Assembly: GCA_013141415.1 (NCBI GenBank)
Contig: JABFQY010000005.1
Location: 62,001-126,000, forward strand
Source of the DNA: Kiritimatiellaceae bacterium
GTDB taxonomy: Bacteria > Verrucomicrobiota > Kiritimatiellia > Kiritimatiellales > Tichowtungiaceae
Direction: 5' to 3'
Length of the DNA stretch: 64,000 nucleotides
Positions 4,149-59,070 of this stretch are shown in pieces (position 1 is the stretch's first letter; each line of letters starts with the position of its first letter). The notes beneath the pieces were generated by a model, which searched no databases, was not told the origin of the DNA, and saw nothing but the letters and a program-made list of their open reading frames with translations. The position numbers were made by a program, and so were the translations under genes.

Positions 4149-4838
4149 ATGAGCGCACAAAAAACCTATCCCATTCGCTGTCCGCAGTGCCGCCACGAGC
4201 AGAAGGTGGAACTTTATGAGTCCATCAATGTGACGCAGCAGCCGGAGCTTAAAACTGCGCTGTTCGAAAACCGTCTGAACCGTATCGTCTGCGGATCGTG
4301 CGAAGCGTCGTTCCGCATCGACAAGCCGCTGCTGTACCACGACCCAGAGCGCAATATTCTGATTCACTGGATGCCCGACACGGTGGTTTCGCGCGAAGAG
4401 ATTCTCGATGAGTTTGATAAAGGCATGGAAGATCTGCGCGCCGCGCTACCGCCGGATATCGAACCGCCGCGCGTGCGGCTGGTTTTCACCCGCGCCGAGC
4501 TGGTCGAGCTGATTTTTATCATTGAAGCGGGGATGGAGGAGCGGGTGGTGGAATATATTAAATACACCATTCACACGCAGAATTCGGGTCGCGTGCCGCC
4601 CGCCACGAAACAATTGCTGCTCAATGTACAGGATTCAACCGCCGACGAATTGCTTTTTGCGGTGCAGAATACGGAGACGTTTGAACTGGAGGACGTTTTA
4701 CGTTATCCGCGCGCGGCGTATCACAACATCCGGAAGCTGTATAAAAAGAATCCGGAGGAGTTTACCGAGCTGTTTCCCGGACCGTACATCAGTGCACGCG
4801 GTGCGCTGATGGCCGAAGAAGATTCAAATGAGCAATAA
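4149..4838 (+). CDS. CpXC domain protein
   Basis: A 229-aa cytoplasmic protein whose N-terminus matches the CpXC domain: a CPQC pair at about 14-17 and a CGSC pair at about 52-55 form a probable zinc ribbon, followed by HDPERNILIHWMP. The C-terminal 150 residues are acidic and helical with no motif I recognise. CpXC proteins have no established biochemical role. The ribosome-binding site is weak (TTTT before ATG). The last codons and the stop lie at the edge of a small inverted repeat (AAATGAGCA at 4826-4834, TGCTCATTT at 4857-4865), so the C-terminal SNEQ may be repeat-derived. Confidence 0.75.
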   Translation: MSAQKTYPIRCPQCRHEQKVELYESINVTQQPELKTALFENRLNRIVCGSCEASFRIDKPLLYHDPERNILIHWMPDTVVSREEILDEFDKGMEDLRAALPPDIEPPRVRLVFTRAELVELIFIIEAGMEERVVEYIKYTIHTQNSGRVPPATKQLLLNVQDSTADELLFAVQNTETFELEDVLRYPRAAYHNIRKLYKKNPEEFTELFPGPYISARGALMAEEDSNEQ

Positions 4839-4876
4839 TCAATTCTCAATCAGCAATGCTCATTTGAACATTGAAT
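4826..4876. repeat. Small inverted repeat at convergent gene ends
   Basis: Perfect 9-bp arms AAATGAGCA (4826-4834) and TGCTCATTT (4857-4865) enclose the CpXC stop codon. The flank GAACATTGAATATTG resembles the GAATATTGAACA repeats found at 48.9 and 51.7 kb. It lies between the CpXC gene and the oppositely oriented TPR gene and might also work as a weak bidirectional terminator. Confidence 0.45.
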
Positions 4877-4881
4877 ATTGT

Positions 4882-5529
4882 TTATTTGGTCAGTTGTTTC
4901 AGCGCGTTTTCGGCTGAGCTGGCCCATGAAGTTCCGGCGTTTTCCGCCAGGAAATCTTCGAGCACGATGCGTGCGTCGCTAATCTGTCCGGCCTGTTCCA
5001 TGCAGCGTGCGACGCTCAGGATGGCGATCGGATGCAGATAGCTGGTGCTGTGTTTTTTGGCGAACTCAGAAAATTGTGCTGCTGCGCCAGCGAAGTTGCC
5101 ATCGGCTTCTGTACAGTAGGCTAGACCCAGTTCCGCCACCGGACGCAGATCGTGGTTGTTATATTTTTTCAGGAAGCGTTCGTATTGAACGCGGGCCTGC
5201 GCCGGGTCGCCGGAGTTAAAGAAAAGTTTGGCCAGATTGAGCAGGGCGATCGGGCCGGTTGGAGTGGAACCGTATTTGCTCACCACTTCTTCAAGCTGCT
5301 GAGGAGTCCGGGCGGACATCAGCATCTGTTCGGCTTTAGCCAGATTGGAGGCTTTATAATTTGCAAAACCTCTGGACGCGATCACGGCGATGATTGCAGC
5401 GAGAAGCCCTGTGCCGATCAGTTTGCCGTAGCGTTTCAGGAATCCGAGAACTTCATGCACTTCCTGTTCTTTAAGTGCCTGTTTCTTTAGCAGATCCTCA
5501 TGTCCCGGGGTATGTTCACGATCCATCAT
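4882..5529 (-). CDS. Membrane-anchored tetratricopeptide-repeat protein (YfgM-like)
   Basis: A 215-aa protein with a short charged N-terminus, one transmembrane helix (about 33-53, IGTGLLAAIIAVIASRGF) and a periplasmic TPR-like region. This is the architecture of YfgM/TPR_21 proteins, which associate with the Sec translocon and periplasmic chaperones in proteobacteria. The ATG at 5529 is preferred over the upstream TTG at 5535 because AGGAG lies 7 nt before it. The repeats (LNLAKLFFNSGDPAQARVQYERFL, GLAYCTEADGNFAGAAAQF and others) have TPR helix spacing. The Sec association is inferred from the family. It lies 40 bp downstream of aroK on the same strand. Confidence 0.7.
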   Translation of the reverse strand: MMDREHTPGHEDLLKKQALKEQEVHEVLGFLKRYGKLIGTGLLAAIIAVIASRGFANYKASNLAKAEQMLMSARTPQQLEEVVSKYGSTPTGPIALLNLAKLFFNSGDPAQARVQYERFLKKYNNHDLRPVAELGLAYCTEADGNFAGAAAQFSEFAKKHSTSYLHPIAILSVARCMEQAGQISDARIVLEDFLAENAGTSWASSAENALKQLTK

Positions 5530-11192: not shown

Positions 11193-11526
11193 CGGCGATA
11201 CTCCTTGTTTGCGGAGTCCGCCCAAAAAAAGAGCGCGAACTCCAAGTCCACATCTCATCTGAGGTATCGCCAGACACCTTGTCGGAAACATGAACAAGGA
11301 GCCGCGCCCACAGGGGCGCGTTCCCGTTCAGTTCGTTTCCGACATAAAAACTGGCGATTTTCAGATGAAACAACACTGCGCGTTAACGCATTTAAAATTT
11401 TTGATTATTGGTTATTCGATATTTGCTCGTTGGTTCCTTTTTAAAAATGATGCTTTTGCACCACAGGAGCCGAAAATAGTCCGCCGCGCCGGTTTTGGAT
11501 AGGCTTTTCAATGGGAAATTTGGTTC

Positions 11527-46763: not shown

Positions 46764-47768
46764 ATGAATGATTTAATCAAACAACTTGAAGCGCGGCTGG
46801 CGGCGGCGGGTAGCGGGAACGCGAAGCGCGCCGCCGAGGAGCTTGCCGCGCATGTGATGGGTTGCAGGCCGCTCGAAATTTATTTCAAAACCATCACGCC
46901 GGAGCAGCAGGCGGAGCTCGAAAAACTGATTGTCCGCGCAGAGCAGGGCGAGCCGATCCAATACATTATCGGTCACGTCGATTTCCGAGGTTTGGAAATC
47001 CGCTGCGACCGCCGCGCGCTGATTCCCAGGCCCGAAACTGAACTTCTCGTTCAGGCTGTTTTGGATAACGTAGACGCGACGCCCTCGTCGCGTACAAAAC
47101 AGACGAAACGCGATCCGCCTTCGCCTAAGGCTACGGCGCGACGCGACGAGGGCGTCGCGTCTACGTTAAAGATCGTGGACGTTGGCTCTGGTACTGGTTG
47201 CATTGCGTTGGCGTTGCTTTCGGAACTGCCGAACGCTGAAGTTGTCGCGGTCGATGTTTCGTCGGATGCGCTGGCGCTGGCAAAAGAGAATGCCGAGCGG
47301 CTGGGATTCGGCGGCCGGTTTACTGCTGTGCAGGGAAATCTTCTCAATGTAGACGCGACGACCCCGTCGCGTTGTAAACAGGAGAAACGCGATCCGCCTT
47401 CGCCTGAGGCTACGGCGCGACGCGACGAGGGCGTCGCGTTTACATTTTTTGCGGAGGCTTCGCTCGACATCGTGGTTTCGAATCCGCCGTACATTCTTTC
47501 CGGTGTCTGCAAAACGTTGGATCCGTCTGTGCGCGACTTTGAGCCGAAGCTGGCGCTCGACGGCGGCGCGGACGGCCTCGATCTGGTTCGTCCGCTGGTT
47601 GAACAGGCGGCTTGGGTTCTGAAACCCGGCGGCGGCATCTTTCTTGAAATCGGTTACGACCAAGGTCTTGCCGTTGCCCTGATATTGAAAGATGCTGGTT
47701 TCCAACGGGTTGAGATCAAAAAAGACTACGCCGGACTCGATCGTATCGTCATCGGTTTCCGGCGCTAA
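46764..47768 (+). CDS. prmC: Peptide chain release factor N5-glutamine methyltransferase with two inserted palindromes
   Basis: Methylates the GGQ glutamine of release factors with SAM. The N-terminal helical domain (about 1-95, ending FRGLEIRCDRRALIPRPETE), motif I DVGSGTGCIALALL and the substrate-binding NPPY (IVVSNPPYIL) are intact, as is KPGGGIFLEIGYDQG. The protein has 334 aa where about 270-280 is usual. The excess is two inserts of about 34 residues, NVDATPSSRT...DEGVAST (101-135) and NVDATTPSRC...DEGVAFT (194-228), each encoded by a palindromic element. There is no clear ribosome-binding site because a hairpin element sits there. Confidence 0.92.
   Translation: MNDLIKQLEARLAAAGSGNAKRAAEELAAHVMGCRPLEIYFKTITPEQQAELEKLIVRAEQGEPIQYIIGHVDFRGLEIRCDRRALIPRPETELLVQAVLDNVDATPSSRTKQTKRDPPSPKATARRDEGVASTLKIVDVGSGTGCIALALLSELPNAEVVAVDVSSDALALAKENAERLGFGGRFTAVQGNLLNVDATTPSRCKQEKRDPPSPEATARRDEGVAFTFFAEASLDIVVSNPPYILSGVCKTLDPSVRDFEPKLALDGGADGLDLVRPLVEQAAWVLKPGGGIFLEIGYDQGLAVALILKDAGFQRVEIKKDYAGLDRIVIGFRR
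47067..47167. repeat. In-frame VDATPS-type element in prmC, copy 1
   Basis: Perfect 27-bp arms (47067-47093, start AACGTAGACGCGACGCCCTC; 47141-47167). The 47-nt loop has GCGATCCGCCTTCGCC and CTACGGCGCG. Falls between the helical domain and motif I of the methyltransferase. Confidence 0.93.
47346..47446. repeat. In-frame VDATPS-type element in prmC, copy 2
   Basis: Arms of 27 bp with a few mismatches (47346-47372 and 47420-47446); loop nearly identical to copy 1 (CGCGATCCGCCTTCGCCTGA). Falls just before the NPPY catalytic motif of the methyltransferase. Confidence 0.92.
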
Positions 47769-48641: not shown

Positions 48642-48653
48642 GGAGCGTATTTT

Positions 48654-49976
48654 ATGGCAACAGAAATTTTGATGCCCCGGCAGGGTCAATCCGTTGAGTC
48701 CTGCATCATCGCCGGCTGGAAAGTGAAAGAGGGCGACACGGTTGCCGAAGGTCAGGCGCTGTGCGAAGTCGAAACCGACAAAGCGACCTTTGAAGTTCCA
48801 GCGCCTGCCGCCGGAACCATGCTTGGAATTTTTTATGCGGACGGCGCAGACGTGCCCGTTTTGAAAGTGATCGCAGCCATCGGCAAGCCGGGCGAAGATG
48901 TTTCCGGCCTGCGGCCGGAAGAACCGCAGAATATTGAACAGAAAACTTCGAAGGAAGAAGTGAAAGACCCTTCTGCGGTTCAGGTTTCAACATTCAATAT
49001 TCAGCGTTCTGGTTCAGTGACCGGATTGGCTTCGCCTCGGGCAAAGCGTTTGGCTGAGAGCAAAGGCGTCGATATCGCAGTAATTCCGGGAACTGGACCG
49101 GAAGGTCGCGTAATCGAACGCGACGTCAAAGCCGCGCTCGCCGGACAGGCTCCGCTTTCGCCCGCCGCCAAGGCGAAGATTGCCGCAATCGGTAGCGGTA
49201 TCGGCGGACGGATTCTTTCGTCTGACGTTCAGGCTCCGTCTGCCGCGCCCGCACCGGTTCCGGCGGCACCGGAAGTCAGCTATAGCGCTGAACAGATGGG
49301 TGCGCTGAAAGAAATTGCGGTCAAAGGTGTACGAAAACTTGTCGCCGGCCGGATGCTCAACTCCATGCAGACGACTGCGCAGCTCACCATGCACACGTCG
49401 GCGGATGCGCGCGCGATTCTTGCAGCCCGCAAACAGTTCAAGGATTCTACCGACAAAGCCGGAATCACCATCAACGATCTGGTGCTCTATGCTGTCGCAC
49501 AGACGCTGGTTAACTTTCCCGAACTCAACGCCTACTGGCTCGGTAGCAAAATGGTGCAGTTCGAAAACGTCCATCTCGGTTTTGCGGTCGATACACCGCG
49601 CGGCCTGATGGTGCCGGTTATCCGCTTCGCTAATAAACTTTCGCTCGAAGAGATCGCTGCGGAAGCCAAGCGGCTTGGCTCGGCCTGTATCAAAGGAACG
49701 GTTGATCCTGATGCGCTCAAAGGCGGAACGTTTACGGTCACCAACCTCGGCGCGGCGGGCATTGAAATGTTCACGCCGGTGCTGAACGCGCCGGAAGTCG
49801 GTATTCTCGGTATCTGCTCCGTGCAGCCCAAGCCGGTGATGAATAAAGAGGGCGGAGTCGGCTTCATTCCGCACATGGGACTTTCAATCACCTTTAACCA
49901 CTGCGCAACTGACGGAGCTCCCGCCGGACGCTTCCTCGCCGCTATGCGCGACACGCTTGCCGGTCTGAAATTTTAA
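48654..49976 (+). CDS. 2-oxoacid dehydrogenase complex E2 (dihydrolipoamide acyltransferase)
   Basis: Transfers an acyl group from lipoamide to CoA. The N-terminal lipoyl domain (about 1-80) has the lipoylated Lys43 in ETDKATFEV. Two E3/E1-binding-like segments follow (ASPRAKRLAESKGVDIAVIP about 124-160 and LSPAAKAKIAAIGSGIGGRI). The catalytic domain ends with SITFNHCATDGAPAGRFLAA; the usual HRxxDG is NHCATDG, keeping His and Asp. The linker at about 90-116 comes from an inverted repeat. AAGGAG precedes the ATG. The oxo-acid substrate is unknown. Confidence 0.9.
   Translation: MATEILMPRQGQSVESCIIAGWKVKEGDTVAEGQALCEVETDKATFEVPAPAAGTMLGIFYADGADVPVLKVIAAIGKPGEDVSGLRPEEPQNIEQKTSKEEVKDPSAVQVSTFNIQRSGSVTGLASPRAKRLAESKGVDIAVIPGTGPEGRVIERDVKAALAGQAPLSPAAKAKIAAIGSGIGGRILSSDVQAPSAAPAPVPAAPEVSYSAEQMGALKEIAVKGVRKLVAGRMLNSMQTTAQLTMHTSADARAILAARKQFKDSTDKAGITINDLVLYAVAQTLVNFPELNAYWLGSKMVQFENVHLGFAVDTPRGLMVPVIRFANKLSLEEIAAEAKRLGSACIKGTVDPDALKGGTFTVTNLGAAGIEMFTPVLNAPEVGILGICSVQPKPVMNKEGGVGFIPHMGLSITFNHCATDGAPAGRFLAAMRDTLAGLKF
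48922..49002. repeat. Inverted repeat in the E2 linker
   Basis: Two nested perfect 10-bp pairs: AACCGCAGAA (48922-48931) with TTCTGCGGTT (48971-48980), and GAATATTGAA (48929-48938) with TTCAATATTC (48993-49002). GAATATTGAACA and TTCGAAGGAAGAA also occur at the start of the four-helix-bundle gene (51721-51759). Confidence 0.7.
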
Positions 49977-49986
49977 GGAGACATTT

Positions 49987-51714
49987 ATGGCTACAGAAAT
50001 TTTAATGCCGCGGCAGGGACAATCCGTTGAGTCCTGCATCATCGCCGGCTGGAAAGTTAAAGAAGGCGATACCGTTGTCGCAGGTCAGGCGCTGTGCGAA
50101 GTCGAAACCGACAAAGCGACGTTTGAAGTTCCTGCTCCGGCGGCGGGAACGGTTCTCGGAATTTTTTATGCAGAGGGCGCGGACGTACCCGTTCTTAAAG
50201 TCATTGCCGCCATCGGCGCTCCCGGCGAGGATGTTTCGGGGCTGCGCCCCGCAACGGCAGGAGTCAGGAGTCAGGAATCAGAAGTCAGTAAGCCGGTTGA
50301 AACGCCGAAGGTTGAAATCAAAACGCCGACTCCTGCTCCCCGACTCCTGACTCCTGAAAATTCAGCGTCAGCTGAATTTGACATCATCATCATCGGCGCG
50401 GGCCCCGGCGGGTACGTCATGGCTGAGCGCGCCGGACACCTCGGCAAGAAAGTTCTGCTGGTTGAAAAAGAACATCTCGGCGGCGTCTGCCTGAACTGCG
50501 GCTGTATTCCGACCAAGACGCTACTCAACTCCGCCAAGCATTATGTCCACGCCAAGGAAGCGCCGGAATTCGGCGTGACCACCGGCGAAGTCAAATTCGA
50601 CATCACCAAGGCGATGGCCTGGAAAAAAGAAGTGATCGAAACACTGCGCGGCGGCATCGGCTTCATGATGAAGAAGAACAAGGTCACCGTGGTGACCGGC
50701 AGCGCGAAGCTCCTCGGCCCGCGCAAGGTGCAGGTTGGCGACAAAATTTACGAAGGCACCGACGTGGTGATCGCTACCGGTTCATCGCCGTTTGTTCCGC
50801 CGATTCCCGGCGCGAAGCAGCCGCACGTGATGACCAGCACGGAAATTCTGAACATCACCGAAATGCCGAAAACACTGACCGTCATCGGCGGCGGCGTGAT
50901 CGGTGTCGAGTTCGCCAGCTTCTTCAGCAGTCTCGGCGTCAAAGTCGACGTCATCGAAATGCTTGAAGAAATTATTCCGTTCATGGATCGCGCTCAGGCC
51001 AAGGAATTCCGCAAAGCGCTCAAAGGCAAAGTGGAATTCAATCTCGGCTGCAAAGTCACGGCGATTGACGGCCACGATGTGAAATACACAAACGCTAAAG
51101 GCGAATCGAACTCCATTCAGGCGGACATTGTGCTGATGTCGGTCGGCCGCGTTCCGAATCTGGCCGGTATGGGCTTTGAAGAAGCGAAGCTCGATTTCGA
51201 CCGGCGCGGCATCAAGGTGGACGAACAGCAGCGAACCAATCTGCCGAACGTTTACGCCATCGGCGACGTGACCGGTAAATCGCAGCTGGCGCACTCCGCG
51301 ACCCGCATGGGCGAAGTAGCGCTCAACACGATCTGCGGACAGCGCGACCGTTTCCGTATGAACGCGATTCCGTGGGCCGTTTATTCCATGCCCGAAGTGG
51401 CCGGTTGCGGTTATACCGAAGAACAGGCGCAGGCCGCCGGGCACAAAGTCAAAACCGCTTCACTGCCGCTGACGATGAGCGGGCGCTTCCTCGCCGAAAA
51501 CGGCAAGCGCGGCCCCGGCTCCGTCAAAGTCATCAAAGACGCCGATACCGACGTACTGCTCGGCGTTCACATGGTCGGCGCAGGCTGTTCCGAAATGATT
51601 TACGGCGCGGCGGTGATGATCGAAGCCGAGCTGCGGGTGAAAGACATCCGCGAAATTGTTTTCCCGCATCCGACGGTCGGCGAAGTGATTCGCGATACCA
51701 TGTTTGCACTGTAA
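49987..51714 (+). CDS. lpdA: Dihydrolipoyl dehydrogenase (E3) with N-terminal lipoyl domain
   Basis: Flavoenzyme that reoxidises dihydrolipoamide with NAD. The 575 aa include an N-terminal lipoyl domain (1-80, Lys43) almost identical to that of the preceding E2. The flavoprotein starts near 131 (FDIIIIGAGPGGYVMAERAG), the redox disulfide Cys168/Cys173 is in GGVCLNCGCIPTK, and the C-terminal interface has HPTVGEVIRDT. The linker (about 91-123, Pro/Thr/Glu-rich) is built from a GGAGTCAGGAGTC inverted repeat. AAGGAG precedes the ATG, 10 bp after E2. Confidence 0.95.
   Translation: MATEILMPRQGQSVESCIIAGWKVKEGDTVVAGQALCEVETDKATFEVPAPAAGTVLGIFYAEGADVPVLKVIAAIGAPGEDVSGLRPATAGVRSQESEVSKPVETPKVEIKTPTPAPRLLTPENSASAEFDIIIIGAGPGGYVMAERAGHLGKKVLLVEKEHLGGVCLNCGCIPTKTLLNSAKHYVHAKEAPEFGVTTGEVKFDITKAMAWKKEVIETLRGGIGFMMKKNKVTVVTGSAKLLGPRKVQVGDKIYEGTDVVIATGSSPFVPPIPGAKQPHVMTSTEILNITEMPKTLTVIGGGVIGVEFASFFSSLGVKVDVIEMLEEIIPFMDRAQAKEFRKALKGKVEFNLGCKVTAIDGHDVKYTNAKGESNSIQADIVLMSVGRVPNLAGMGFEEAKLDFDRRGIKVDEQQRTNLPNVYAIGDVTGKSQLAHSATRMGEVALNTICGQRDRFRMNAIPWAVYSMPEVAGCGYTEEQAQAAGHKVKTASLPLTMSGRFLAENGKRGPGSVKVIKDADTDVLLGVHMVGAGCSEMIYGAAVMIEAELRVKDIREIVFPHPTVGEVIRDTMFAL
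50258..50356. repeat. Inverted repeat in the E3 linker
   Basis: Perfect 15-bp arms CAGGAGTCAGGAGTC (50258-50272) and GACTCCTGACTCCTG (50342-50356), wholly inside the lipoyl-flavoprotein linker. Related words occur at 46070-46126. Confidence 0.8.
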
Positions 51715-51720
51715 AACGCA

Positions 51721-52142
51721 GAATATTGAACAAGGAATATTGAATGTCGAAGGAAGAAAAGTTTGACCTTGAAGAACGGCTGATTGATTTTGCGGCACGT
51801 TGCATCAAGGTTGCGAATTCCTTGCCGAACACGCAGGCAGGTCTGCATCTGTCCGGACAACTGACGCGCAGCGGTACTTCGCCGGCTTTGAATTACGGGG
51901 AAGCGCAAGGTGCTGAATCCCGTAAGGATTTTGTTCACAAGATGAGAATCTGTCTGAAAGAGCTTCGGGAGACTCGCATCTGTCTGAGGATTATTATTCG
52001 TTCCGAGATGTTCAGTGAAGAAAAGCTTCAAGCGCTTATCGATGAAACCAATGAGCTGATTTCAATTTTTGTAACCAGTATTAAAACCGCAAAGGCGAAT
52101 ATGAACCGAACTTCGTAATTCGAAATTCCCTGTTCAATATTC
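51721..52142. mobile_element. Possible inverted-repeat-bounded cassette carrying the four-helix-bundle gene
   Basis: Left end 51721-51752 (GAATATTGAACAAGGAATAT...CGAAG) and right end 52111-52142 (CTTCG...CCCTGTTCAATATTC) are imperfect inverted repeats of 32 bp with about 6 mismatches. They contain the start and stop codons of the single enclosed gene. No transposase is present and no target duplication is obvious, so mobility is an inference. Confidence 0.5.
51744..52118 (+). CDS. Four-helix bundle protein (S23/23S rRNA IVS family)
   Basis: A 124-aa protein of the family found in 23S rRNA intervening sequences and related to accessory variability determinant (Avd) proteins. Helical segments with [40 protein letters not shown] and [19 protein letters not shown] are diagnostic. 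Biochemical role unknown; members are basic pentamers that may bind nucleic acid. It lies inside the E3-E1 gap of a catabolic operon, bounded by inverted repeats, rather than beside rRNA. AAGGAATATTGA, part of the left repeat, serves as ribosome-binding site. Confidence 0.88.
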
Positions 52143-52164
52143 GATATTTAAAAGGAGTAAAACC

Positions 52165-54618
52165 ATGCCCAAGATTCAGAATGTTTGTCCCAAAGAAGTC
52201 CGCAAAGCGGGCGAAATCACTTTCAAGCCGATTCCGGTCAACCAGTACAAACCGGACTATAAGAAGGAAGTGAAAAAGTACGGCGTCGAGCGTCTGAAAA
52301 AGATGTACTACGACATGCTGGTTGTCCGCGAATTTGAAACCATGCTCAACCAAATCAAGGTGCAGGGCTCGTACGCGGGAATCGAATACAACCATCCCGG
52401 TCCGGCGCATCTTTCGATCGGTCAGGAAGCGGCCGCTGTCGGTCAGGCGGTTCACCTCACTACCGAAGACTACATCTTCGGCTCGCACCGCTCGCACGGC
52501 GAAATTCTCGCCAAGTGTCTCTCGGCGGTTTACCAGCTCGATGACGCTCAGCTTACCAAAATCATGGATGATTTTTTCGGCGGCGCCACGGTGAAGCCGG
52601 TGAAAGACGGCTCGCACAAGAGCGTCAAGGATCTCGCCGAAGATTTCGTACTCTACGGAACGCTGGCTGAAATTTTCGCCCGCCAGAACGGTTTCAATAA
52701 AGGTCTCGGCGGATCGATGCACGCGTTCTTTATTCCGTTTGGCTCTATGCCGAACAACGCGCTTGTCGGCGGCTCCGGCGACGTTTCTGTCGGCTCGGCA
52801 CTCTTCAAGCTGATCAACCGCAAGCCCGGCATCGTCATCGCTAACATCGGCGACGCGTCGCTCGGTTGCGGCCCGGTCTGGGAAGGTTTCTGGATGGCCG
52901 CGATGGATCAGTACCGCACGCTGTGGGACAAGAGCTTCGGTGCGCCGCCGGTGCTGTTCAACATCATGAACAACCACTACGGCATGGGCGGACAGACCGC
53001 CGGCGAAACGATGGGCTACGGCATGGTCGCGCGCATCGGCGCCGGGATTAATCCGGAGCAGATGCACGCCGAGCGCGTGGACGGCTACAATCCGCTGGCC
53101 GTTGCCGACGCCACTGAACGGCAGAAAAATATTCTGCTCGAAGGCAAAGGCCCGGCGCTGCTCGACGTCGTCACCTACCGCATCTCCGGTCACTCACCGT
53201 CCGATGCTTCCTCCTACCGCTCCAAGGAAGAAATCGAAGCGTGGGAAGCCAACGACTGCGTCAAGCTGTTCGGTGAATACCTGATCAGCAACGGCGCACT
53301 GACCGCCGATGATGCTGCCGCGCTGAAAGCAACGGTTGTTGCCAAGGTCACCAAGACGCTCAAACTGGCCACCGACAAAACCGTTTCGCCGTACACCGAT
53401 ATCAACATCATCGAAGGTGTGATGTACTCCAACGGCAAGGTTGAAAAATTCGACGACCGCAAGCCGGACGTTCTGATGCCGATGGAAGAGAATCCGCGCG
53501 TCAAGAAGCTGGCCGGCAAAGCCCGCTATGCGTTCGACGCCGACGGCAAGCCGATCGGGGCCAACAAACTGTACACCTACCGCGACGGCATTTTTGAAGC
53601 GATGATTCACCGTTTCTACACCGATCCGACGATGATTGCGTACGGTGAAGAAAACCGTGACTGGGGCGGAGCGTTCGCTTGTTACAATGGTTTGACCGAA
53701 GCGATTCCGTATCACCGTCTGTTCAACTCGCCGATTTCCGAAGGCGCGATTGTCGGTTCCGCCTGCGGTTACGCGCTGAGCGGCGGCCGCGTCTGCGTCG
53801 AGCTGATGTATTGCGACTTCATGGGCCGCGCCGGTGACGAAATTTTCAACCAGATTTCCAAATGGCAGTCGATGTCCGCCGGTATCTTGAAGATGCCGCT
53901 GGTTCTGCGTATTTCTGTCGGTAACAAATACGGCGCGCAGCATTCGCAGGACTGGACCGCGATGGTTAATCACATTCCCGGCCTGAAGGTTTACTATCCC
54001 GCCACGACCTACGACGCAAAGGGTATGCTCAACCTCGCGCTGGCCGGAACCGACCCCGTTATCTTCTTTGAATCGCAGAAGACCTACGGCATCGGCGAAA
54101 TGTTCGAGAAGAGCGGCGTACCGGAAGGCTACTACGAAACGCCGGAAGGCGAACCGGCTGTTCGTCGCGAAGGTAAAGACCTGACGATCATCACGGTCGG
54201 TCCGGTGCTTTACACCGGCATCAAGGCCGCTGACGCGCTGAAGGCCAAGTACGGCCTGGAAGCTGAAGTGATCGACCTGCGCTTCGTCAACCCGCTTAAC
54301 TACGACAAGATCGTGGCGTCGGTGAAGAAGACCGGCCGCGTGCTGCTGGCGTCGGACTCTGTGGAGCGCGGAAGCGCGCTGCACAACATCGCCAACAATA
54401 TTTCGCAGCTTTGCTTCGACCACCTCGACGCTCCGCCGGTTGTTGTCGGCGCCAAGAACTGGATTTCGCCCGCCGCCGAAATGGAAACGGATTATTATCC
54501 GCAGCCCGACTGGATGATCGATGCGATTCATCAGCGCATTCTGCCGCTGCCGGGCCATGTCGTGAAAAACAACTACACCACCGGCGAAATGCTGCGCGTT
54601 GCCCGCAAAGGAGTGTAA
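52165..54618 (+). CDS. Fused E1 alpha-beta subunit of a 2-oxoacid dehydrogenase complex
   Basis: Thiamine-diphosphate enzyme that decarboxylates a 2-oxoacid and acylates lipoamide. The 817 aa combine E1 alpha (about 40-400: [11 protein letters not shown], the ThDP motif GDASLG...FNIMNN) with E1 beta (about 465-817: [55 protein letters not shown]-type loop). Fusion of the two is less common than separate genes. AAAAGGAG precedes the ATG. With the adjacent E2 and E3 it gives a whole complex; pyruvate, acetoin or another 2-oxoacid could be the substrate. Confidence 0.9.
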
Positions 54619-58211: not shown

Positions 58212-58246
58212 AAAAGGCGCTTCGGATATTCCGGAGCGCCTTTTTT
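58212..58246 (+). terminator. Rho-independent terminator ending the DeoR operon
   Basis: AAAAGGCGCTTCGGATATTCCGGAGCGCC followed by TTTTTT, about 20 bp after the SorE-like stop; also near the 3' end of the convergent methyltransferase gene. Confidence 0.9.
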
Positions 58247-59070
58247 CATGTTGGACGTTGCAGTGTAAGCAGGGTGAAGCTGACGGTGACCGTCAGTTGA
58301 TCGAGCCGCTGCACGCTAGCTTTTGCTTCCGGGCCGGAGCACCAGAAGATCGGCGTCATCTGGATCAGATCGGCGAGTTGCGCCGCGTCGAGTGTCTGCT
58401 GATAGCTCAACAGTTCCCGGTGCGTTTCCTTGAAGTGCGGCGCGCATTTGGCGGCGGCCTCATCGGCTTTTTTTTCGAAGTCACCGGCATTGGCCGTCAG
58501 CTGCGAACGCAGTTCAATCAAATGGTTCGGGCCGGGTACGCCGAGAATCAGTGCGCCATCGGGTTTTAGTACACGGACGAATTCGTCCGGATTACGCGGA
58601 GCGAGAACGCTGAGAATGACATCCATTGAGTGATCGGCGAACGGCAGTTTGCGCATTCCGTTGGCGACAATCCACTTTGCCTTTTTGTACCGCTTGGCCG
58701 CGCACCGGATAGCTTCTTTTGAAATATCCACGCCGAAAAATTGTCCATCGCGAGACTCGCTCAGTGCGCCGAGGAAATGACCTTCGCCGCAGCCGCAGTC
58801 GAGAATTGTCGATTGTGGATTGAGGATTGCTGATTGACGGATCAAGCCGGTGAGGGGATCAAAGGCGCCGGAATCGAGGAAACGGCGGCGCGCCTGAATC
58901 ATATTGTCGTCGTCGCCGGGATGGCTGGAGCGCCGCTGGTGGCTGAGCAACAGATTCAGGTAGCCCTCTTTTGCCGGATCGAAGGTGTGGCCGTTTTCAC
59001 AGCGACACTCCCGCCCGCTCCATGTCAGAGTTTTTTCGCAGGCTGGGCAAATGAGGGGTGATGGATTCAT
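58246..59070 (-). CDS. RlmA-like rRNA guanine-N1-methyltransferase
   Basis: A 274-aa SAM methyltransferase with an N-terminal zinc site (CPACEK...CENGHTFD, about 9-32) and KEGYLNLLL, the RlmA/RrmA pattern, then motif I ILDCGCGEGHFLGAL (about 89-103) and APRNPDEFVRVLKPDGALIL. RlmA methylates G745/G748 of 23S rRNA. The stretch IRQSAILNPQST (about 78-89) is encoded by a low-complexity repeat placed just before motif I. Two further Cys-rich sites seen in the family appear intact. Confidence 0.85.
   Translation of the reverse strand: MNPSPLICPACEKTLTWSGRECRCENGHTFDPAKEGYLNLLLSHQRRSSHPGDDDNMIQARRRFLDSGAFDPLTGLIRQSAILNPQSTILDCGCGEGHFLGALSESRDGQFFGVDISKEAIRCAAKRYKKAKWIVANGMRKLPFADHSMDVILSVLAPRNPDEFVRVLKPDGALILGVPGPNHLIELRSQLTANAGDFEKKADEAAAKCAPHFKETHRELLSYQQTLDAAQLADLIQMTPIFWCSGPEAKASVQRLDQLTVTVSFTLLTLQRPT
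58801..58836. repeat. In-frame GATTG-type repeat in the RlmA-like gene
   Basis: GATTGTGGATTGAGGATTGC plus TGATTG, a tandem of GATTG-like words within the coding region before SAM motif I. No clean inverted repeat; of the low-complexity class seen also at 4826 and 46070. Confidence 0.5.

Follow-up and report, generated by a model that had tools for sequence, protein, structure and literature searches.

In the window, by which the whole analysed stretch of 64,000 nucleotides is meant, the gene of a small four-helix-bundle protein (124 aa, 51744–52118, + strand) is found within a dehydrogenase operon, where it follows the gene of a lipoyl-domain E3 and precedes that of a fused E1, all three being on the + strand. 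This position and common orientation had been predicted from the sequence, and the profile matches agree with them. The protein matches PF05635 with 64.2 bits (cut-off 33.8) and TIGR02436, "four helix bundle protein", with 91.3 bits (cut-off 24) and thus belongs to the family. Four-helix genes of this kind (S23/IVP) have been known for decades in rRNA intervening sequences and beside retroelements; we know of no settled account of how they spread. The features considered below are:

48921–49006, + strand: gene-less copy with ends GAACCGCAGAATATTGAACAG ... TTCAATATTCAGCG, in frame in the E2 linker of the same operon (pattern search)
49987–51714, + strand: lipoyl-domain E3 (dihydrolipoamide dehydrogenase), upstream neighbour (open reading frame and profile match)
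50258–50356, + strand: gene-less inverted pair of GAGTCAG heptads, in frame in the E3 linker (arms 50258–50286 and 50328–50356, 86% complementary)
51712–51716, + strand: TAAAA, candidate left copy of a target-site duplication, including the E3 stop codon at 51712–51714 (sequence, low-complexity)
51717–52148, + strand: whole cassette of left heptad arm, gene and right heptad arm, with probable boundaries
51721–51752, + strand: left arm of the inverted repeat (inverted-repeat search; period-7 z 4.9)
51732–51737, + strand: ribosome-binding site AAGGAA in the left arm (sequence)
51744–52118, + strand: four-helix-bundle protein gene, 124 aa (PF05635, TIGR02436)
52111–52142, + strand: right arm of the inverted repeat, with the stop codon at 52116–52118 (inverted-repeat search)
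52149–52153, + strand: TAAAA, candidate right copy of the target-site duplication (sequence)
52165–54618, + strand: fused E1 (alpha and beta) dehydrogenase, downstream neighbour (open reading frame and profile match)

The inverted repeat was found exactly where the original prediction had put it. Its arms (51721–51752 and 52111–52142) are 32 nt long, 84% complementary and 358 nt apart, the left arm containing the ribosome-binding site AAGGAA (51732–51737) and the ATG at 51744, and the right arm the TAA at 52116–52118. A refinement concerns the make-up of the arms, which do not form one unique 32-bp repeat: the left arm consists of the degenerate heptads GAATATT GAACAAG GAATATT GAATGTC GAAG and the right arm of the inverse, so that each arm is an array of GAAnnnn units, the period-7 z of the locus (L007) being 4.9. 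The arm pair has a score of 22 (matches minus mismatches); in 35 family loci, by comparison, swapped pairs reach 12 at their 95th percentile and shuffles 11.3 at their 99th.

As judged by comparison with the empty sites in three genomes of the same genus (G005, G008, G013) and with copies elsewhere, the element most likely extends from 51717 to 52148. At its borders TAAAA is found on both sides (51712–51716 and 52149–52153), a candidate 5-bp duplication of low complexity, the length of which is that of the plasmid duplications described below. The four-helix gene is the only family match within the element, and a transposase of its own, as in autonomous insertion sequences, or a Y1 transposase within the repeat-framed unit, as in REP/RAYT systems, is not among the matches. 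The arms frame the open reading frame as the terminal repeats of 23S rRNA intervening sequences do; the element lies, however, between E3 and E1, and the whole window gave no Rfam match at gathering score. A promoter was not identified within the cassette. In the same operon there is a 266-nt direct repeat (86%; 48651–48916 and 49984–50249), which stems from the lipoyl domains with which E2 and E3 start.

Heptad arrays at the edges of four-helix genes

In the genome to which the window belongs (G000, 2.2 Mb) PF05635 gave eight matches, of which seven exceed the cut-off of the profile search. All seven are framed by short-period arrays with units that differ between the loci, namely heptads such as GAGTCAG, GCGATT-type or TAAAGCC-type and, at one locus, an 8-nt unit. 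At the eighth match (L008), which is below the family cut-off, no arrays were found, and it was left out of the set of 36 family loci from relatives. In this set a short-period array (z > 3 at some period) is present beside the gene in 36 of 36 loci, 29 times at period 7. As controls, ParE genes were found near such arrays in 5 of 30 loci and E1 genes in 11 of 27 (L017, L023 and L034 being excluded since they are cut by contig ends), the latter number because the window element and gene-less arrays occur there. In a set from many phyla including archaea (best 80 of 575 loci) the array is found in 77 of 80, with period 7 in 68. The loci were chosen by match quality, either one per genome or the top 80 of 575, and the samples are non-random. 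The cleanest control for periodicity is to displace the test windows from the gene: period 7 is found at the gene edge in 112 of 136 family loci (subsets 28/35, 62/74 and 22/27) and in 10 of 126 loci at 350 nt and 10 of 123 loci at 700 nt.

The two arms of a locus are related to each other. Among the loci from relatives, 25 of 35 (L069, which is without upstream sequence, drops from the arm tests) have a score higher than the 95th percentile for swapped arms, as have 55 of 77 in the many-phyla set (from the best 80 of 575); in the swapped-arm controls 3 of 30 ParE and 1 of 27 E1 loci do so. Two loci of these sets are duplicates, L162 being the same record as L043, and L257 being L007; both were excluded from the displaced-window test and from the mismatch count given below, and L162 was counted in the many-phyla array and arm tests. 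The length of the arrays peaks at 4–5 units (84 of 181 flanks) with a median of 36.5 nt for period 7, and the tandem 7-nt units are a feature that the arrays have in common with STRR-type heptamer arrays.

The array unit varies between copies but goes with the protein subfamily. For example, of 25 readable members of the window subfamily at other sites, 17 have at least three in-phase [CG]AA (SAA) heptads on the left side of the gene, versus 4 of 113 other family members, and on the right side [CG]AA heptads are found in 17 of 26 versus 5 of 113. Across phyla, protein and array similarity are correlated (rho 0.153, a value reached in none of 300 permutations, after exclusion of 20 same-site-like pairs), and in the set of relatives alone they are not (rho 0.026; 99 of 300 permutations). 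Because subfamily members at unrelated sites retain the same type of ends, gene and ends travel together.

Occupied, empty and gene-less sites

If the gene and its ends form a mobile unit, empty sites should be found in relatives, and for such sites the original prediction had proposed to look. In 30 E1 loci, that of the own genome included, the spacer between E3 and E1 is at most 25 nt long in 18 (14–25 nt in 17, 5 nt in one), among them the three same-genus genomes G005, G008 and G013, whose E1 is 93–95% identical. Three junctions hold the window element or remnants of it, four hold other sequence and five are unreadable. The conserved presence of the gene at this junction, named beforehand as the outcome that would speak against a mobile unit, thus did not appear. 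The three are G000 with the full element, G006 with an element internally deleted to 170 nt that has retained both ends, and the same-genus genome G001, in which only the gene tail and the right arm follow after another gene. Junction spacings with negative values, and those of 1607 in G006 and 4001 in G001, were discarded, since they go back to genes that had been assigned wrongly. One of the four junctions with other sequence, that of G027 (locus L023), which belongs to another family, holds a gene-less period-9 array between E3 and E1.

The other two junctions of the operon measure 10–12 nt in G000. Elsewhere in the same operon the closest copies are found between E2 and E3 (G008, 81% identical; G028, 67%) and between a DeoR-type regulator and E2 (G018, 75%). 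All three junctions are empty, among the 20 operon regions fetched, in the same-genus genomes G005, G009 and G010 and in the order-level genomes G015, G017, G019, G020, G024 and G025. A further 26 members of the window subfamily (50–61% identical; 30 loci fetched) are at unrelated sites. Several family copies remain at one site across relatives, from which it follows that movement of the cassette is infrequent; the genes downstream of these copies are, as read by eye, presumably those of glutamate synthase, dapA, fcl and rfbA.

Insertions can be read to the base on plasmids. In a plasmid collection 40 of 72,556 records match the family member L043, most of them cyanobacterial. The 423-bp unit on plasmid C of Trichormus variabilis ATCC 29413 has an empty counterpart in Nostoc linckia NIES-25 and N. 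carneum NIES-2107; the alignments of the two flanks with the empty sites are 96–99% identical and overlap by exactly five bases, GTAAT. In Nostoc ATCC 53789 a unit related to that of Trichormus is found on pNsp_a with TTCTA on both sides, and the site is empty on pNsp_c. A 5-bp target-site duplication is thus present in two plasmid pairs, both times overlapping the stop codon of the upstream gene, and the insertion sites are without any array, the insertions being clean units. Over about 416 bp, heptad ends included, Trichormus, ATCC 53789 and Aulosira laxa have units that are 79–83% identical; no similarity was found between the flanks of these units, which means that related units stand at unrelated sites. 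Filled and empty sites of a DNA transposable element are hence seen both in the relatives' operons and in the plasmid pairs. At sites B–F and H presence and absence are visible, with junctions too diverged or unclear for a duplication to be read. In a search of the end windows of 99 loci a 5-bp duplication was found in 22, versus 13.7 for swapped pairs; 3 of 24 displaced controls reach this value, and the excess is thus not robust enough to carry weight by itself. As judged from these alignments, the plasmid elements of the relatives have spread by transposition.

Two other plasmid cases were considered and rejected as independent insertions: the copies on two plasmids of Calothrix NIES-22 have common neighbours, and the copy H104 of Nostoc C052 is at the same site as that of ATCC 53789. 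In the homologous operons of pNsp_a and pNsp_c (L325 and L326) different cassettes and arrays are found at neighbouring junctions. Carriage by phages was also rejected (no tblastn match of L043 in 50,697 phage records).

Some cassettes stand in CRISPR operons. In Picosynechococcus PCC 7003 (L322) a four-helix cassette separates cas10 from cmr3, where PCC 7002 has a 12-nt spacer, and in Anabaena sp. 90 (L308) one is found at cas6/cas4. This may explain why the family is shown in a CRISPR-association figure in the part of PMC10910872 considered here. Membership in a defence system was rejected, the window protein having no PADLOC match and L001 a weak match to Cas11e (E 0.0064).

Ends without the gene were found as well, as the original prediction had proposed to check by a genome search. 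In the E2 linker of the operon (48921–49006) the ends of the window's own element stand in frame, the first being GAACCGCAGAATATTGAACAG and the second TTCAATATTCAGCG; the core pattern of these ends is expected by chance 0.09 times per window and was found twice. In the E2 genes of nine relatives no such copy was found. The GAGTCAG pair in the E3 linker has the same heptad as the four-helix locus L005 of G000; this linker looks similar in G005 and has a GAATATT-type look in G008. In 300 kb of contig C3 there are gene-less arrays of several of the unit types that also frame genes, and in the plasmid searches with the Trichormus unit both ends were found about 170–200 bp apart (H107, H109, H110), together with many single ends (34–45 bp, 91–100% identical). 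Since gene-less heptad arrays occur, the arrays could form a wider class of repeat.

Further repeats were observed in the window. Gene-less heptad arrays of the ATTGAAC / ATTTTTG type are present at 4827–4886 and 11390–11434, and a GATTG-type heptad array is in frame in a methyltransferase-like gene (58805–58836; ORF 58246–59070, − strand). An open reading frame that looks like PrmC (46764–47768) contains two in-frame palindromic inserts of 101 nt (47067–47167 and 47346–47446) that are 89% alike, the first with perfect 28-nt arms; they are reminiscent of the Rickettsia palindromic elements.

The probable cassette, rival readings and candidate mobilising enzymes

We consider it probable that the window element, about 430 bp long, is a transposable DNA cassette with a single gene and with terminal inverted repeats made of heptads; it is non-autonomous and would be mobilised in trans. 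The comparisons show that gene and ends move together, that sites are empty in relatives, that insertions on plasmids have 5-bp duplications and that deleted and gene-less copies exist. For the window copy itself, spread by transposition is inferred. The earlier proposal that a one-gene unit with its own ends accounts for the spread of the family is thereby supported, with transposition visible in the plasmid relatives and extended from these to the window.

It is unlikely that the gene is instead a resident regulator of the dehydrogenase operon. Such a gene would be passed on together with the operon, its product would control translation by binding to heptads close to start codons, and recombination between the duplicated lipoyl sequences would move it from one junction to another. 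The four closest copies (100, 81, 75 and 67%) are indeed all in the dehydrogenase operon, the arms overlap ribosome-binding sites, and E2 and E3 have the 266-nt direct repeat in common. However, the gene is missing from the operon in most relatives, the 26 further subfamily members (30 loci fetched) are at unrelated sites, and lipoyl recombination leaves the E3/E1 site unexplained.

Quite unlikely is also an element that acts at the level of RNA in the manner of a 23S rRNA intervening sequence, in which a stem in the operon mRNA is under selection and RNase III removes the hairpin that bears the gene. The window arms do pair in the predicted RNA fold (z −3.25), and the Coxiella intervening sequence has, in the section of PMC4990558 that describes it, the same layout with a 28-bp stem and excision by RNase III. 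The copies are co-directional with the upstream gene in 115 of 136 cases and with the downstream gene in 95 of 132, a bias that may reflect the need for read-through transcription but is weak evidence, because ParE genes show the upstream bias too (18 of 21). If an RNA stem were selected, wobble G-U mismatches should outnumber A-C mismatches, but among the transition-type mismatches of the arms (counted in those 92 of 144 loci whose inverted repeat could be read) there are 90 G-U and 107 A-C (p 0.25), and by this test the RNA stem was rejected as the selected feature although the RNA folds. Moreover, the copy in Nostoc edaphicum is antisense to both its neighbours, and the relatives have 5-bp target-site duplications. 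Dependence on a reverse transcriptase was rejected as well: there is no RVT_1 match in G000, and hence no linkage as for the Avd of diversity-generating retroelements, and the copy number of the family is uncorrelated with RVT_1 (partial rho 0.00). Because a G-U excess and an RT domain are both missing, one copy is antisense and the RT counts are uncorrelated, the arms look like DNA ends rather than like a kept RNA stem.

As to the mobilising enzyme, a transposase in the four-helix element or tied to it was not found. That Y1/HUH (REP-associated) transposases mobilise the cassettes, as they do REP elements, is very unlikely. It was considered since the copy numbers of the family and of Y1 transposases are correlated in 58 genomes when genome size is allowed for (partial rho 0.57, versus 0.40 for GxxExxY and 0.31 for ParE); all these values ignore relatedness. 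Of 26 Y1 transposase genes, 15 stand between inverted repeats (swapped pairs), as expected for REP systems, but their ends differ from those of the four-helix family, and in 2 of the 51 genomes that contain the family no Y1_Tnp match was found. Duplication of target sites, seen here with 5 bp, is not expected of HUH transposition.

That the arrays are ordinary slippage repeats (STRR-like) in which the gene merely tends to land is highly improbable and largely refuted by the clean plasmid empty sites without arrays, even though gene-less arrays are present in G000 and heptamer repeats are known, mostly from intergenic regions, in cyanobacteria, Xanthomonas and Beggiatoaceae (PMC4692102 and PMC4679880, in the parts that treat such repeats), for at the two gene edges one arm is the inverse of the other, and the arms overlap start and stop and go with the protein subfamily.

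The one-gene transposable cassette would work as follows. Its terminal inverted repeats consist of 4–5 degenerate heptads. It would have entered the operon at the stop codon of E3, ahead of E1 and in operon orientation, and the four-helix gene is presumably read from the operon transcript via the ribosome-binding site in the left arm. Cutting and joining would be performed in trans by a recombinase encoded outside the element, and the protein would form a ring-like factor that binds nucleic acid and recognises the repeated heptads at the ends of its own cassette. The solved relatives 2gsc and 2rld have five chains each, 2rld matching the window protein with E 1.3e-18, and Avd is a five-membered ring; with about five heptads in each end, every subunit of such a ring could be matched by one unit. 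The PHROG Avd profile matches two other family members, and in PHROG no match was found for the window protein.

GxxExxY (PF13366) genes are possibly a sister class of one-gene cassettes. In 24 of 30 loci (L072–L101) inverted repeats were found on both sides of them, the repeats being of another kind and often nonamer-like, and the genes stand in operons, mostly co-directional with their neighbours. Only the inverted framing is claimed here, because the four-unit periodicity test shows few arrays (9 of 30 at any period).

More tentatively, the four-helix genes of bacteria and some archaea may as a rule be one-gene transposons of an undescribed class, in which a pentameric ring reads about five heptads, one with each subunit, and passes the ends to a recombinase, either of the host or co-resident, for insertion at stop codons between genes; many orphan heptamer arrays might then be gene-less remains and the GxxExxY nuclease genes a sister class. 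The heptad-framed four-helix gene suggests that a type of very small mobile element has been overlooked. To the question of how four-helix genes spread, a testable answer is a cassette of one gene that ends in heptad arrays, has clean empty sites and is accompanied by duplications of 5 bp; many of the heptamer repeats described from bacterial genomes could have their source in such cassettes. Four-helix genes beside CRISPR, transport and metabolic genes are likely often passengers rather than parts of these systems.

Comparison with known systems

In the open-licence literature no link was found between four-helix genes and inverted heptad arrays. PMC4679880 contains neither "S23" nor "four helix" in its text, and in the portions of PMC4692102 and PMC4679880 that concern heptamer arrays these are not tied to a four-helix gene. 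With the STRR and heptamer arrays, as far as those portions describe them, the cassette shares the tandem 7-nt units, which here, however, form inverted pairs at gene edges. The family is related to the Avd of diversity-generating retroelements, a link also made for PF05635 in the relevant part of PMC10053308, but G000 is without reverse transcriptase.

RAYT encodes a Y1 enzyme. REP/RAYT systems resemble the cassette in that a gene is framed by inverted repeats and gene-less repeats are dispersed, but the sole gene in the window unit encodes a four-helix-bundle protein. MITEs and other non-autonomous DNA transposons share with it the terminal inverted repeats, the target-site duplication, the internally deleted derivatives and the lack of a transposase. 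Unlike MITEs, the cassette has one conserved gene of a single family and ends of iterated, drifting heptads, and an autonomous partner was not found.

Closest in build are the 23S rRNA intervening sequences of Leptospira and Coxiella, which have a PF05635 protein, a unit of about 430 nt and terminal inverted repeats of about 28–32 bp, and which were earlier suggested to be mobile or transposed (Ralph and McClelland 1993, as cited in the passage of PMC4990558 that deals with their origin). The window unit differs from them in lying between protein genes of an operon, in having heptad arrays as ends with arms that are not kept by RNA pairing, and in having relatives that are bordered by 5-bp target-site duplications.
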